50,893 nucleotides of DNA from Maribacter sp. (GTDB lineage: Bacteria; Bacteroidota; Bacteroidia; Flavobacteriales; Flavobacteriaceae), in the NCBI GenBank assembly GCA_024228355.1, contig JAAETN010000146.1, positions 1-50,893 on the forward strand, given 5' to 3'. Below, piece by piece: positions 4,424-43,063 of the stretch. The position numbers and the translations under genes were made by a program. The notes under the pieces were generated by a model. The model was given only the letters and a program-made list of their open reading frames with translations. It did not search any database and was not told where the DNA came from. Every line of letters begins with the position of its first letter. Position 1 is the first letter of the stretch.

Positions 4424-4519
4424 AATTATTTGAATTTTTATCTGTCGGTAATTTGGGTAATATAGACCTCTTTCTTAAATGAATTCAAAAAAGGGAAAAA
4501 TATTCACTTATATAATGAT

Positions 4520-5701
4520 ATGAAATCGATAATCAAGCAAGGCCCAATCATAACAGAAGCATATGATGCGAATACTGAAACTGCCCAGGTATACTATAAA
4601 GCCGTAAAAGAATGGGTTGCCAAACAAACCGAAAGCTTAAAAGAGCTAGATGTCAAAGCCCAACGCTATGGCAATGAAGCCCTGGCGTTTCGCACAATGT
4701 TGAAATTTTTGGAATCCGAGAAGATTATCTTAAACCTTAAAGAAGCGGTTACACTTACCCTTATTAATCCTGTTTACAAGGAGACGGGGCGTATGCAGAA
4801 GAGAAACCAGCATCCCCATGGTGAGAACTCATTACGAACAAAAATCACCACTCTCCAATATTTCATGAGGATTAACCCTCTTTTCAAGGGTCGGGTTTTT
4901 GTTGTGGATGATGGATGCCCTGATGGATCTGGAAATATGGCTGAAAACATTTTAGCCGAACACCCGAATTGTCCCCATAAGGTTTTTTTTCTTGCAAATG
5001 CGATTGATGAAAATGATATTGATCTACCTGTTGGCATAACCCATAAAAACGGAAGCAATCGAAGTGTCAAAGGTGGCGCGGCATTGTTCGGAATGCAAAA
5101 AGCTCTGAAAACTCCAGCAGAAGGTGTACACATAATTGTAGATAACGATGCTGATCTGTCTATTCACCCAATGCAGTTGGGTTTGTTGATCAAGGATATT
5201 GTGGAAGGAAAAACTAAGGCGATTGCGGGATCAAGACGTGAAGATGATTCTGTTTCACTTATTGGGGGAGCTAGAGACCTTCGCGGGAATCTGTTCATTC
5301 GTATTTGGCAACACTTTTTACCTCAACTTGCTGAGAATATTGTCGACACAAATAGAGCATTCAAGGCATTTGAAAGCAGTGCTTTGGAAAGGATATTACC
5401 AGCTATTAAGATCTATACTTTTCCTTATCAGATAGAGCTACTTCAAGCATGTATATCAATGGAAATTCCTTTGATAAAGAAAGGTATTGCCTATTTGGAT
5501 TCTGAGGCAGCCTCAACACAGAGTGGTGACAATATCACTGAAACATATTTAAATCAAATCAATCAAATAATTGATATCGCGAGGAGATATAACACCATTC
5601 CTATAACGGATCCTCTAATGAAATATCTATCATCCATATCTGAGGAAGAATGGCGCAAAATAGAGGCTAATCCTCCTGAAAGTATTCTGGACATGATCTG
5701 A
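4520..5701 (+). CDS. Family 2 (DPM1-like) glycosyltransferase
   Basis: A predicted cytoplasmic GT-A fold. It shows VVDDGCPDGS (nucleotide-sugar binding), SVKGGAALFGM, the metal-binding HIIVDNDADLS in the DxD position, and DTNRAFKAF, which resembles the DTxxGFK element of dolichol-phosphate-mannose-synthase-type GT2 enzymes. About 110 residues precede the catalytic domain and are not recognised. No membrane segment is seen. The neighbours give no pathway clue, so donor and acceptor are unknown. GT-A membership is fairly secure; the exact subfamily is not. Confidence 0.7.
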   Translation: MKSIIKQGPIITEAYDANTETAQVYYKAVKEWVAKQTESLKELDVKAQRYGNEALAFRTMLKFLESEKIILNLKEAVTLTLINPVYKETGRMQKRNQHPHGENSLRTKITTLQYFMRINPLFKGRVFVVDDGCPDGSGNMAENILAEHPNCPHKVFFLANAIDENDIDLPVGITHKNGSNRSVKGGAALFGMQKALKTPAEGVHIIVDNDADLSIHPMQLGLLIKDIVEGKTKAIAGSRREDDSVSLIGGARDLRGNLFIRIWQHFLPQLAENIVDTNRAFKAFESSALERILPAIKIYTFPYQIELLQACISMEIPLIKKGIAYLDSEAASTQSGDNITETYLNQINQIIDIARRYNTIPITDPLMKYLSSISEEEWRKIEANPPESILDMI

Positions 5702-5773
5702 ATTTAGCATTCAAAATGGTCCCAGTGAGAATCTGAAAATTGTTAAATTTACCAGTATAAATTTGCTTTCGGA

Positions 5774-6214
5774 TTATACTGTATAAAACCCTTTTTCTCT
5801 CAATAACACATCTACATTGTACCAAAAAACCTTAAACGTAAAATCAGGTTCAACAGTTGTATCAGTAAGTTCTAATAAATTTTTCCTTATTTCTATTGCC
5901 CTATCACTATGCATCTTTTCAGAAGGTTTTAGATAGGCCATATCCCAAGTCTCAAAAATTCTTTTCTTCGTTTCCCCTTCGCTAAGAATATCAATATCCG
6001 TATGTCTTTAATCCCGTTCAATACTGTCCATCAACTCCTTAATAGTAGCCTTACTACCTTCAAGCAATTGAATAAAATAACCCTTATTAAACACCAAACA
6101 TCCAGAAATATCATTTTTTGAATTAAAGTTTCTAGCAGTTTTTAGAATATCTTCAATTTGCTCATATGTTATTTCAGGAATTGCAATTGAACGATAAGTA
6201 AGATTATAAAGCAT
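5774..6214 (-). pseudogene. BLUF-domain photoreceptor gene interrupted by an in-frame TAA
   Basis: The track shows only 68 residues, but the same frame continues after one TAA (6008-6010) for 77 more codons to a stop at 5774. The whole reading is a BLUF flavin photosensor of 146 positions. Y7, N31 and Q49 match the flavin-contacting Tyr, Asn and Gln of AppA with identical spacing (24 and 18). After the stop, W90 and M92 in ETWDMAYL keep the AppA Trp104 and Met106 spacing. There is no frameshift and the distal part is intact, so the lesion is a single recent nonsense change at the position before the conserved RH, or a sequencing error. If real, the product lacks the last part of the domain. 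Confidence 0.88.
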
Positions 6215-6312
6215 GAATTTTCGTAAAATTGATTAAGAATAATACTATAATAAATAAGTTACTTAAATGTAAAGAAAAATCTTTATACTAACACATCAAC
6301 TTTACACCAATA

Positions 6313-6324
6313 ATCCCATGGGAT
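6313..6324. other. 12-bp perfect palindrome in the ppc-BLUF gap
   Basis: ATCCCATGGGAT is a perfect palindrome in the gap between the BLUF start and the ppc 3' end. It is too short for a terminator stem and lacks a T-run. It may be an operator half-site pair or chance. Confidence 0.25.
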
Positions 6325-6373
6325 AAAATAGAACGAATGGGTACTATTGACCTAAATATGACCTTTACAATCT

Positions 6374-8917
6374 TTAGGCTGAATTCCTACTTGCATTAAT
6401 ATTTCCGTAAAGTGAGCGGGTTACAATTTTCTCATATAACTCTTTAAATTCGGTGTCCTGTCCGATCTTTTGAAGCGCATATTGTTGAATCACCAACAAT
6501 GGCAACACAATATTTTCCCTTATCTCTATGGACTCCCTTGAAATCGGTTCATTTTCCATAAGGATGTTCGAGTCAGCAATCAATAATAGCATTTCTATAG
6601 AAAGCTGATACTCTTCGTGCAGAATATTCCAAAAATCACCATACTTGGCATCCTCTTTCATATAGCTTGTCAACTCAAAATAGCATTTCGTAAGTGACAT
6701 CATACTATTGTGCATCAATGCTTTAAAGAATGGTACTTCCTTGTACATTTTTTTCAATTCCCGTAGTCGTCCCGATTCCCTAATGGTTTTTATTGCCGTG
6801 CCAATCCCAAAATAACCAGGCACATTTTGCTTTAATTGGCTCCAAGAACCCACAAAGGAGATGGCCCTTAGGTCTGTCAACTCCAACTGTTTTTTATTGC
6901 CCCGTTTACCTGGTCTACTTCCTATATTAGCTTTTTGATAGTACTTAAGAGTACTCCTATTTTCCAAGTAAGGGATAAACATGTCATGATTCTTTAATGC
7001 ATCGTATTTAGCAAAACTCAAATCGGACAGTTCTTCCAACAACTTTCGGTATTCTTTAGAAATCACATTCTCTTTACCAAATAGATTGTTAGATAGGCCG
7101 GCAGTTAACAACTGCTCACTATTGTACATAAATTGTTCCTTGGTGCCATAGGTACTGGTAATGGTCTGTCCCTGGATTGTAAGCTGAATTTCATTATTCG
7201 CAATATCTTTGGTTTGGGCAGCATAAAAACGATGTGTCTTTCCGCCCCCACGCGCTGGTGGGCCACCTCTACCATCAAAAAACATGGCTTTGATATGGTT
7301 CTTCTTACAGACCTTGGATAATTGTTCTTTGGTTTTTAAAATTGACCAGTTCGCCTTTAAATACCCCCCATCTTTTGTACCGTCAGAAAAACCAAGCATC
7401 ATCGTCTGTTGGTCTTTTCGTTGCTCTAAATGTTTTCGGTATTCTGGCAAATCGAATAAGAACTGCATAATTGACTCAGCTTCATCCATACCTTTCATGG
7501 TTTCGAAAAGCGGAATTATATCAAAGGTAATCTCATCGTCGCTCCATCCGCACCATCTGAACAATCCATAAACATATAGCACAGAAAACACATCTTCAGA
7601 ATTACTGATGATATATCTATTACAACCTTCCTCACCATTCTTTGACTGTATTTCCTTTAATTGGGAAATGTTTGTAATCGTATCTTTTACGATATCATCA
7701 TAATCGTCAGGATCTAATTCTAATTTTTTCTGAACAAGTAATTTTATCAATTTCGATTCACTTAATTCATGAATACCCTCTTTTATAAGTCCGTTTTTCT
7801 TTAGGATAGTTTCTACGATCAAAACATGTTTACTATGGTCCTGCCTAATATCAAGAGTCGCAAAGTGCGTTTTGAAAATCTTTACTTTATCAATAAAATG
7901 ATCTAACTCATGTAAATATAGTCCGTGATAATCATCTATCAACAAATTCCGTATCGCCATTAATGGGTCAATGATCTCTTGGTATCCAATATTTTTATCT
8001 AGATTGAACATGGCGGTATAAAGGTTGTTCCTCAGCGATTTTATTTGTGGCTGTAGTTTCTTGAATGTTAGTTTTTGATGTAAAACTTTAAGATCATTAT
8101 AATAACATTTCATTAAACTGACCCTAAGTTCATCTGCGACGTTTTTGGTGGTCTCGGCTGTCACAAATGGATTCCCATCCCTATCACCACCAGGCCAAAA
8201 TCCCAATTTCATGATGTTAGGATTCTCAAATTCCTCATCGTCAATATTCTCCTTTATGTAGGCATATAAATCGCCCAATGCGTCATAATAAACATTCCTA
8301 AGTATATAAATGATGTTTTTGGCTTCATCTAGAGGCGTTGGTTTTTGACTATTGATCAATGAAGTGAGCCCGAGTTGTTGCAGGGTAATATCTATATCAT
8401 CTATCTTATTGTCTACAATAAGGGACCTTAAATCGTTCATTATATCCAGTACCGCCGGTGTATAGAATTGGGTAGGGTGTGCGGTCAATACAATTCTAGC
8501 GCTAAAAGTTGATAATTTTTCAGCTACTTTATCCCAACTTTTGGTTTTGTTAACTAGTTGAAAATAATCCTTTATAGATAGTGTTTCACTATGTTCCTGA
8601 AGTTTTGGGAAAGCTGCATCTTCAACACTATCGTACAAAACCACTTGCCTTTCTACATATTGAATAATACGGAACATAAAATCTATTTGATCCTTTTCCG
8701 ATTCAATATTCACATAGTTATGGAAGAAAGATTCTAAAATGTCCTGCGGATTCAAGCCTGCCTTAAGGCCTTTTGAAGATTGATGCAATAAAAGCGGAAC
8801 CACCATCCCAACGTTCTCAATATTCCTATAAGGCAAATTAAGAAACAGGCTGTTGTAAACGTTAAACTTATTCCGGACTGATTTTTTAAATTCTTCTAAT
8901 CTTTCTGTTTTATGCAT
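6374..8917 (-). CDS. ppc: Phosphoenolpyruvate carboxylase
   Basis: Carboxylates PEP with bicarbonate to oxaloacetate, replenishing the TCA cycle. The track ORF has 859 residues; the start chosen here (MHKTERLEEFKKSV) gives 847. The catalytic His is in LTAHPTQF, about residue 147 with this start. WPGGDRDGNPFV follows, then the Gly/Arg-rich catalytic loop FFDGRGGPPARGGG, and the C-terminus ends NINASRNSA, close to the QNTG-type end of the family. The 12 extra N-terminal residues in the track do not look like the family, and a TACATTTG promoter-like box lies between the two starts. Convergent neighbours are absent; the gene appears monocistronic. Confidence 0.97.
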   Translation of the reverse strand: MHKTERLEEFKKSVRNKFNVYNSLFLNLPYRNIENVGMVVPLLLHQSSKGLKAGLNPQDILESFFHNYVNIESEKDQIDFMFRIIQYVERQVVLYDSVEDAAFPKLQEHSETLSIKDYFQLVNKTKSWDKVAEKLSTFSARIVLTAHPTQFYTPAVLDIMNDLRSLIVDNKIDDIDITLQQLGLTSLINSQKPTPLDEAKNIIYILRNVYYDALGDLYAYIKENIDDEEFENPNIMKLGFWPGGDRDGNPFVTAETTKNVADELRVSLMKCYYNDLKVLHQKLTFKKLQPQIKSLRNNLYTAMFNLDKNIGYQEIIDPLMAIRNLLIDDYHGLYLHELDHFIDKVKIFKTHFATLDIRQDHSKHVLIVETILKKNGLIKEGIHELSESKLIKLLVQKKLELDPDDYDDIVKDTITNISQLKEIQSKNGEEGCNRYIISNSEDVFSVLYVYGLFRWCGWSDDEITFDIIPLFETMKGMDEAESIMQFLFDLPEYRKHLEQRKDQQTMMLGFSDGTKDGGYLKANWSILKTKEQLSKVCKKNHIKAMFFDGRGGPPARGGGKTHRFYAAQTKDIANNEIQLTIQGQTITSTYGTKEQFMYNSEQLLTAGLSNNLFGKENVISKEYRKLLEELSDLSFAKYDALKNHDMFIPYLENRSTLKYYQKANIGSRPGKRGNKKQLELTDLRAISFVGSWSQLKQNVPGYFGIGTAIKTIRESGRLRELKKMYKEVPFFKALMHNSMMSLTKCYFELTSYMKEDAKYGDFWNILHEEYQLSIEMLLLIADSNILMENEPISRESIEIRENIVLPLLVIQQYALQKIGQDTEFKELYEKIVTRSLYGNINASRNSA

Positions 8918-8926
8918 AGACTTTGT

Positions 8927-8934
8927 CAAATGTA
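8927..8934 (-). promoter_or_regulatory. Possible -7 element (TACATTTG) before ppc
   Basis: On the minus strand, TACATTTG fits the Bacteroidota -7 consensus TAnnTTTG and lies about 10 nt upstream of the chosen ppc start. No -33 TTTG is seen at the right spacing, and the leader would be extremely short, so the call is tentative. Confidence 0.3.
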
Positions 8935-9072
8935 TACACCCATAATGGTACATACGGAATTACTTACCCAATTGAGCTGGTAAATATCGGTATATTCAAC
9001 GAACCCATATTTGTAAATTATAGCAATTAACAAAATACTGTACACTTAGTACAAAAACAACAGAAAATGAAC

Positions 9073-40357: not shown

Positions 40358-40401
40358 TAGCTTTGCACTACTTAAGACATATAGCTTAGGAACGTCTTCC
40401 T

Positions 40402-40844
40402 ATGAATAAAGAAAACAACGATATAACCCGATTTGGTGTAATTGGCGGTAACCAGTTTAGGCTTTTAATAACCTCCACATTTAAATGTTGTTACTATCAA
40501 TGATTTGGCAGATTTGATAGGGGCTAGGGAAATAAATTTCCGCATTTATGGGTACGCTAACTTACATTTCAATTATAGCTAAAAGAGAAACTTCTAATCA
40601 AGAAATTAATGATACTTTTGAAAAAGCTTCCCACAATGAGCTAAAAAACATACATTTTTATACGAAAGACCCTATAGTTATCTATAATTATAAACAATAG
40701 TTGTTAATCTTATACGTTTGATTCTCAGATGACTTCCATATTCGGAAAAATGTTAAAATTATTGGCTGGTATGATAAGAAAACACGTCTTTGTAGCAGAA
40801 TTATATATATAATCCCCTTATTGATAAACAAGAAATTCGATTGA
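40402..40844 (+). pseudogene. Remnant of a glyceraldehyde-3-phosphate dehydrogenase gene
   Basis: The 483-bp ORF-free gap holds pieces of one GAPDH in order but in three frames. In the frame of 40402, RFGVIGGNQFRLL matches the NAD-binding GFGRIGRxxFR start. After a one-base shift (from 40478), HLNVVTINDLADL matches NVEVVAINDLAD. After a jump to a third frame (from about 40539), GTLTYISIIAKRETS, then NELKNIHFYTKDPIV, match the late GAPDH block. After stops at 40698 and 40719, NVKIIGWYDKK and SRIIYIIPLL match the VKxxxWYDNEWGYSNR C-terminus. The middle, with the active-site Cys, is missing. It is a decayed paralogue with an internal deletion. Confidence 0.85.
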
Positions 40845-43063
40845 ACTTAATATTTCCATATAAACGTATAAAGCTATTAGCCATTATTTTGGTCTTTTTG
40901 TGCTGTGGACAAAGTGTATCTGCACAGAATAAATCTGTTCATGACGACGTTCAAGCCTATTTTAATGAAGCGAGAACTTTTGGGAATAAAAACCAAATAG
41001 ACTTGGCCCTTACATCCTTGGATCAAGCCGCTGCCCTTGCCGAAGAAAACAAGGACGTTAAAACATTAATAGACAGTTATCATATGTTCGCCCTACTTTA
41101 TCTTAAATTGGATAAGGTAAGCACTACCAAATTTTACTGGGATAGAGCTAAAGTATTGCTGAAAGACATCGAATACCCTTACGGGGATGCTATCTATAAG
41201 TATATAGAAGCAATATTGCTATTTAAGGAAAATCAAAATTTCCAAGCAATTTTCATGCTTAATGAAGCAAGACAACTTAATAATGATCGCAATTTTTTCA
41301 ATAATATTTTGTTGGTTGAGGGCAATATCTATTTGAATCTGGAAAAGTATGAAAGTGCATCGAAAAATTTCAATTCCTTGGTAGTCAATACTGATGTCTA
41401 TGAAAAGGAGTATCTGGCAGCTAGGGCTAACATTGGGCTCGCGCAAACAAATATTAAACTAGCTAATTTCGAAGAAGCCTCAAAGTATGCTGAAAATGCC
41501 TTAAAATTAGCCAACGAAAATAGATTTTTTTTAGAAATAATTGAAAGTAACCAATTACTATCCCAATCATATGAAGGACTAGGTCTTTATCATGAGGCAC
41601 TCGCGTCAACCCGAAATCTATACGCGGCAAAGGATTCCCTTTTTACAATAGAAAAAATAAAAATTGAAACAAAGACGGCAAATGATATTCATAACGAAAA
41701 TCTGGCCGATGAGGTAAAACGGCAAGACAAGCGAATAGAGGAACTAAGTAAATCTGCCAATAGGTCAGAAATAACGGCCATATTAACCTCTGCTTTTCTC
41801 ATTATTATCTCATTATTGGCAGTTTCCTTATATCGGAATAATCAAATAAAACTCAAGACCAACGATCTTTTACATACCAAAAACAGCGAGTTACAGGCTG
41901 CTAGGGATGAGGCCGTAAATGCTATGGAAGCCAAAACCAATTTCTTGTCAACAGTTAGCCATGAGCTTAGAACTCCACTCTATGCGGTCACCGGTCTTAC
42001 GCATTTATTGTTGGAGGAAAATCCAAGTAAAAATCAAAAAGAACACTTAAAGGCCTTGAAATTCTCAGGTGACTATCTTTTGAATTTTATCAATGATATC
42101 CTTCACATAAATAAAATTGATGCGGATAAGTTAGAACCTTTGAATATGGAGTTCAACCTTAAAAAGGTTTTAAAAGAAGTCATTGATTCATTACAACAGA
42201 GTGCTAAGGAGAATAATACCAAAATTACATTGGATTATGATGATAGTATTCCTTCACATTTAATGAGTGATCCATTGAAGCTTTCACAAATTTTCATGAA
42301 CCTCGTGGGCAACGCACTTAAGTTCACTAAAAATGGTGAGGTTAAAGTCATTGCACAAATGGTACATAAGGAAGAGGAAGATGTAACGCTATATTTTGAG
42401 GTTTTGGATAATGGTATCGGAATTTCAAAAGAACAACAACAGAAAATCTTTGATGGATTTGAGCAGGGCTCAATTCAAATAAACAGGGAATATGGCGGTA
42501 CCGGACTTGGACTCACCATTGTTAAAAGTCTTTTAGGGCTATTCAACAGTAAGATCAAATTAGAAAGTGACATCGGCAAAGGTAGTTCATTCTTTTTTGA
42601 ACTAAAACTAAAAAGCAAGGACAGTATTGTTGATGATATACCTTTTGAGATCACCCAGAAAGATTATGAGTTTCAAGGTCTGCATTTAATGATTGTTGAA
42701 GACAACAAAATCAACCAGGTAATTACTAAAAAAATGTTGGCCAAAAAAGAAATCACCAGCGATATTGCCAGTAATGGCACTGATGCCATTGATCTAGCCA
42801 AGAATAACGACTATGATGCAATTTTGATGGATATTCATATGCCTGGGATCAGTGGAGAGGAAGCCACGATTGAAATTCGAAAATTTGATAAAATCACCCC
42901 GATCATTGCCTTAACGGCAATCTCTTTGGACGATAGTTTGGAAAGTTTCTACGCCGCTGGATGTAATGATGTTGTCACCAAACCATTTAAGCCTGAGATA
43001 TTCTATCAGAAAATTGGAGAGAACATTTTCGAGAATGGGCAAAACGGAACCCCTAATGCATAA
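40841..43063 (+). CDS. TPR-containing hybrid sensor histidine kinase, TTG start
   Basis: 740 residues. An N-terminal signal or anchor (YKRIKLLAIILVFLCCGQSVSA) is followed by TPR-like helices to about residue 300 and a TM helix (about 310-330, ILTSAFLIIISLLAVSLY). HisKA is FLSTVSHELRTPLYAVTG (His about 373). HATPase boxes are FMNLVGNALKFTKNG, VLDNGIGISKEQQ and YGGTGLGLTIVKSL. A C-terminal receiver has its phosphoacceptor Asp near 664 in ILMDIHMPGISG. The start is TTG, with no ATG near. The gene starts inside the tail of the GAPDH remnant. There is no output domain. It overlaps lpxK tail to tail by 11 nt. Confidence 0.92.
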   Translation: MNLIFPYKRIKLLAIILVFLCCGQSVSAQNKSVHDDVQAYFNEARTFGNKNQIDLALTSLDQAAALAEENKDVKTLIDSYHMFALLYLKLDKVSTTKFYWDRAKVLLKDIEYPYGDAIYKYIEAILLFKENQNFQAIFMLNEARQLNNDRNFFNNILLVEGNIYLNLEKYESASKNFNSLVVNTDVYEKEYLAARANIGLAQTNIKLANFEEASKYAENALKLANENRFFLEIIESNQLLSQSYEGLGLYHEALASTRNLYAAKDSLFTIEKIKIETKTANDIHNENLADEVKRQDKRIEELSKSANRSEITAILTSAFLIIISLLAVSLYRNNQIKLKTNDLLHTKNSELQAARDEAVNAMEAKTNFLSTVSHELRTPLYAVTGLTHLLLEENPSKNQKEHLKALKFSGDYLLNFINDILHINKIDADKLEPLNMEFNLKKVLKEVIDSLQQSAKENNTKITLDYDDSIPSHLMSDPLKLSQIFMNLVGNALKFTKNGEVKVIAQMVHKEEEDVTLYFEVLDNGIGISKEQQQKIFDGFEQGSIQINREYGGTGLGLTIVKSLLGLFNSKIKLESDIGKGSSFFFELKLKSKDSIVDDIPFEITQKDYEFQGLHLMIVEDNKINQVITKKMLAKKEITSDIASNGTDAIDLAKNNDYDAILMDIHMPGISGEEATIEIRKFDKITPIIALTAISLDDSLESFYAAGCNDVVTKPFKPEIFYQKIGENIFENGQNGTPNA

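Follow-up and report, generated by a model that had tools for sequence, protein, structure and literature searches.

A single in-frame TAA codon interrupts an otherwise conserved BLUF photoreceptor gene in a Maribacter draft genome

Is the BLUF photoreceptor gene of this Maribacter strain truly broken, and would the break leave the strain without blue-light sensing? The question arises from contig JAAETN010000146.1 (C146) of a 4.7-Mb draft assembly (GCA_024228355.1) in 807 contigs; this whole contig, 50,893 nucleotides in length, is the window analyzed here. On the basis of its sequence, a BLUF frame with one premature stop codon had been predicted, attributed to gene loss of very recent date, polymorphism, or sequencing error, and taken to mean loss of blue-light sensing in the strain.

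A BLUF frame with one internal stop codon

The BLUF frame runs on the minus strand, which the original prediction had left unspecified, from position 6214 to position 5774 and comprises 146 codons plus a terminal TAA. Translation confirmed the predicted TAA at codon 69 as its sole internal stop (Table 1). Read through with an X at the stop, this single frame matched the Pfam BLUF profile (PF04940) with 102.6 bits and an E value of 1.3e−29 over profile positions 1 to 92 of 92. A six-frame search of the whole genome recovered the locus independently, with one TAA inside, and found no second BLUF; a compensating second BLUF was therefore rejected. A chance open frame was rejected by the full-length profile match together with the identity to a sister species protein (82%) through and past the stop. 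No uninterrupted frame encodes a complete BLUF domain: after the TAA, the only ORF of at least 50 amino acids with a start codon is 55 amino acids long and opens at M92.

Table 1 Features of the BLUF locus and its neighbors in the window
Feature	Position	Strand	Evidence or content
Glycosyltransferase-2-like neighbor, convergent with the BLUF gene	4520..5701	+	Weak PF00535 match below the curated cutoff; synteny
Distal BLUF fragment, codons 70 to 146 plus terminal stop	5774..6007	-	W90, M92, and C-terminal helical part; sister identity, dN/dS
55-amino-acid ORF starting at M92, lacking W90 and the flavin site	5774..5941	-	ORF list
Premature in-frame TAA, codon 69	6008..6010	-	Sister orthologue at the syntenic site has AAA (Lys)
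Proximal BLUF fragment, codons 1 to 68 plus TAA	6008..6214	-	Y7, N31, and Q49; 71.2 bits alone against Pfam BLUF
ppc neighbor (phosphoenolpyruvate carboxylase-like, named from sequence)	6374..8953	-	84 to 89% identity in 11/11 genus relatives searched

The residues expected of a BLUF domain are present on both sides of the stop. Y7, N31, and Q49 precede it and W90 and M92 follow it, with spacings of 24, 18, 41, and 2. As had been predicted, these spacings equal those of AppA, in which the counterparts are Y21, N45, Q63, W104, and M106, and the intact protein of the sister species aligned without gaps to the AppA structures 2bun, 2iyg, and 1yrx. Among 43 aligned relatives, N31 is found in all, Y7 and Q49 in 42 each, and W90 and M92 in 38 each.

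The AppA BLUF domain, represented by the same three structures, was the top sequence match of the intact sister protein among solved structures (64 bits). AppA has an additional C-terminal regulatory part beyond the BLUF domain (a 406-residue chain, 4hh0, was matched), whereas the Maribacter BLUF does not. With its Tyr/Asn/Gln flavin-site residues and Trp/Met pair within about 146 residues, it is like the short stand-alone BLUF proteins PixD/Slr1694, Tll0078, and BlrB, in which a single N-terminal BLUF domain is followed by a short tail, and structures of this type (2hfn, 1x0p, and 2byc) were matched by sequence. Unlike these proteins, the frame here is broken at codon 69, and no complete domain can be translated.

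An intact orthologue in a sister species

The only close orthologue found is that of Maribacter sp. SS_bin_62 (JABDKZ010000473.1, contig C416 of genome G004), where the gene is intact and its product aligns without gaps at the amino acid identity given above. The sister contig is syntenic with the window over its full 8.6 kb, in the order trpF (part), trpB, trpA, M20 peptidase, glycosyltransferase, BLUF, and ppc (trp and ppc gene names were read from the sequences). The sister orthologue, proposed earlier as a check on codon 69, has a sense codon there, AAA (Lys), and the TAA found here differs from it by one A-to-T change that leaves the length unchanged. Lysine is also encoded at this position in the next-closest homologue (L062, genome G266), which is 52% identical. 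In these respects, the locus resembles nonsense pseudogenes of bacterial draft genomes, in which a lone premature stop disrupts a gene that is otherwise conserved and has an intact counterpart in the sister; it differs from them in that no further lesions have accumulated yet.

The intact sister gene and the aligned homologues are single, unsplit genes, and the idea that the two parts are always separate genes was rejected on these grounds. The same observation bears on two further possibilities, recoding with readthrough of the stop and a split BLUF in which each half works as its own protein. Preservation of the distal half is in keeping with such an arrangement, but the first start codon after the stop is M92, and a distal product made on its own would be missing W90. 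TAA is not known to serve as a recoding codon in bacteria, nor is any bacterial mechanism known that recodes it, and we regard this reading as extremely improbable.

Age of the lesion and constraint

Comparison of the BLUF gene with its sister orthologue gave a dN of 0.10, a dS of 0.65, and a dN/dS of 0.16, with values of about 0.11 before the stop and about 0.20 after it. The dN/dS of five neighboring genes ranged from 0.035 to 0.094. The BLUF gene is thus under less constraint than these neighbors, yet it is clearly constrained.

Amino acid changes after the stop were polarized against the 43 relatives; 3 fell in this lineage and 7 in that of the intact sister, and 5 were unclear. The distal part shows neither relaxation nor acceleration in this lineage. 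If constraint had ended when the two lineages split, this branch should have gathered roughly 50 or more amino acid changes in the part after the stop, by a coarse estimate in which both branches contribute equally to the divergence. The undecayed distal part therefore indicates that the lesion is either very recent or not real. Together with the sense codon in the sister and the single gene in relatives, this supports the three causes suggested earlier (very recent loss, polymorphism, or sequencing error), taken as a joint set.

A young lesion is also what a segregating polymorphism would show, with the assembly capturing a single allele among several and some members of the population retaining an intact gene. 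The genome, if it is a metagenome bin, represents a population. Only a single assembly turned up for this species, which counts against this alternative, and we consider it very improbable.

Base error or real mutation

The main rival to a real nonsense allele is a sequencing or assembly error, in which a single miscalled base interrupts what is really an intact gene. An unbroken gene with one wrong base and a nonsense mutation of very recent date fit the data equally well, since neither a second lesion nor relaxed constraint was found. The fragmentation of the draft into 807 contigs also speaks for an error. The local sequence reads GATAAAAG in the sister and GATTAAAG here. This difference equals a pair of compensating homopolymer miscalls, with one T too many and one A too few, and an error at this site therefore keeps an appreciable share of the probability.

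The error rate of the assembly was assessed by scanning the window for stops and frameshifts with proteins of genus relatives, which cover 43.7 kb of it, and classifying each apparent lesion by comparison with the ORFs of the window. Within these 43.7 kb, the conserved genes contained neither a frameshift nor a second clean nonsense codon, which indicates a low rate of gene-breaking errors and argues against a wrong base. The single apparent frameshift lay where the real gene is on the opposite strand, and the other apparent stops were gene ends, upstream extensions, or shadow frames, with the exception of a decayed GAPDH remnant. An error-prone assembly is thus not supported, as the window-wide scan revealed no excess of gene-breaking errors. 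On balance, we judge a base error unlikely.

The GAPDH (gap) remnant occupies approximately positions 40358 to 40840 on the plus strand. Its last ∼106 residues are 54% identical to the intact gene of genomes G008 and G003, and it contains 3 stops. The intact gap gene in G008 lies directly before the orthologue of a TPR hybrid histidine kinase, which is found at positions 40841 to 43063 of the window.

Predicted consequences of the stop codon

The most likely explanation is that a sporadically distributed BLUF gene carries an ordinary and real nonsense allele of very recent origin. Specifically, a short stand-alone BLUF gene was probably inactivated by one A-to-T change that converted Lys69 (AAA) to TAA, and it was lost very recently. 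In the proposed sequence of events, the gene would have entered, or been retained in, the lineage that this species shares with its sister and would have remained under purifying selection until very recently. The change at codon 69 would then have caused its loss in the sequenced lineage before any second lesion accumulated. Within this explanation, the frame with its stop, the codon change, the absence of relaxation, and the intact gene at the syntenic site of the sister are observed, and a genuine base at codon 69 and loss of function in both fragments are inferred.

Translation would end after residue 68. In the BLUF fold, the segment that follows corresponds to beta-4 and beta-5 and then the C-terminal helices. 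The predicted 68-residue product would therefore lack these elements as well as the Trp/Met region. The sole start codon left downstream would be M92, where the only downstream ORF of at least 50 amino acids opens; reinitiation would thus be unable to restore the domain, and neither piece is predicted to form a flavin-binding, light-switching domain. The finding bears mainly on annotation, as gene callers would give either a BLUF fragment of 68 residues or no gene at this locus. By itself, it is a small one, a further copy of a familiar photoreceptor family that is recently broken (or miscalled), in a sporadically distributed light sensor apparently caught early in loss.

Distribution of BLUF in the genus and family

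BLUF was found in 3 of the 12 genus genomes: this one, the sister, and G002, which has a different BLUF (30% identity). The other nine lack any BLUF, and most of the genus thus does without one. Across the wider family, a BLUF match was obtained in 116 of 301 genomes. A literature search on BLUF in Maribacter or on flavobacterial pseudogenes returned nothing relevant, as judged by title and abstract.

The conserved ppc gene was used as the flank to locate the site across the genus. Positions 4424 to 6373 of the window, from the M20 peptidase to ppc, form a variable insertion site that holds the glycosyltransferase and BLUF pair here and in the sister. The interval ranges from 0.36 to 6.1 kb in the eight other genus members compared, and both the BLUF gene and the glycosyltransferase are absent from it in all eight; a ∼241-residue ORF or other content is found at the site in most other members. 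The glycosyltransferase at this site is shared with the sister species only. As the site lacks BLUF in the other members compared, the BLUF gene is an accessory gene of this species pair at this site. A broader scenario, in which the stop allele segregates in the population, with the light sensor lost recently and perhaps under selection as part of repeated gain and loss of BLUF in the genus, appears improbable.

Among the matches listed, two other BLUF frames of the family (L099 and L100, from G179:C1 and G185:C1) carry one in-frame TAG each. Both TAGs adjoin the domain's GISG segment; their codons differ slightly from each other, and neither corresponds to codon 69.

Other putative blue-light sensors

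The prediction that this strain has lost blue-light sensing is not supported. BLUF absence is, as described above, the usual condition in the genus (nine of the 12 genomes), and the genome encodes a native LOV protein. No photolyase/cryptochrome domain (PF00875) was found in the genome by a search in which 8 of 14 controls were positive; in a rhodopsin search, none of the controls was positive. A pattern search located one LOV-type site in the genome (G000:C703:4580-4602). It lies in a protein (L098, G000:C703:4439-4939) that contains PAS domains, the canonical cysteine motif GRNCRFLQ, and, as read from its sequence, a histidine-kinase-like phosphoacceptor region, SHEFRTP. Orthologues with 59 to 77% identity are present in six other genus members, indicating that the LOV protein is native and not a contaminant. 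It is likely another blue-light sensor kept by the strain.
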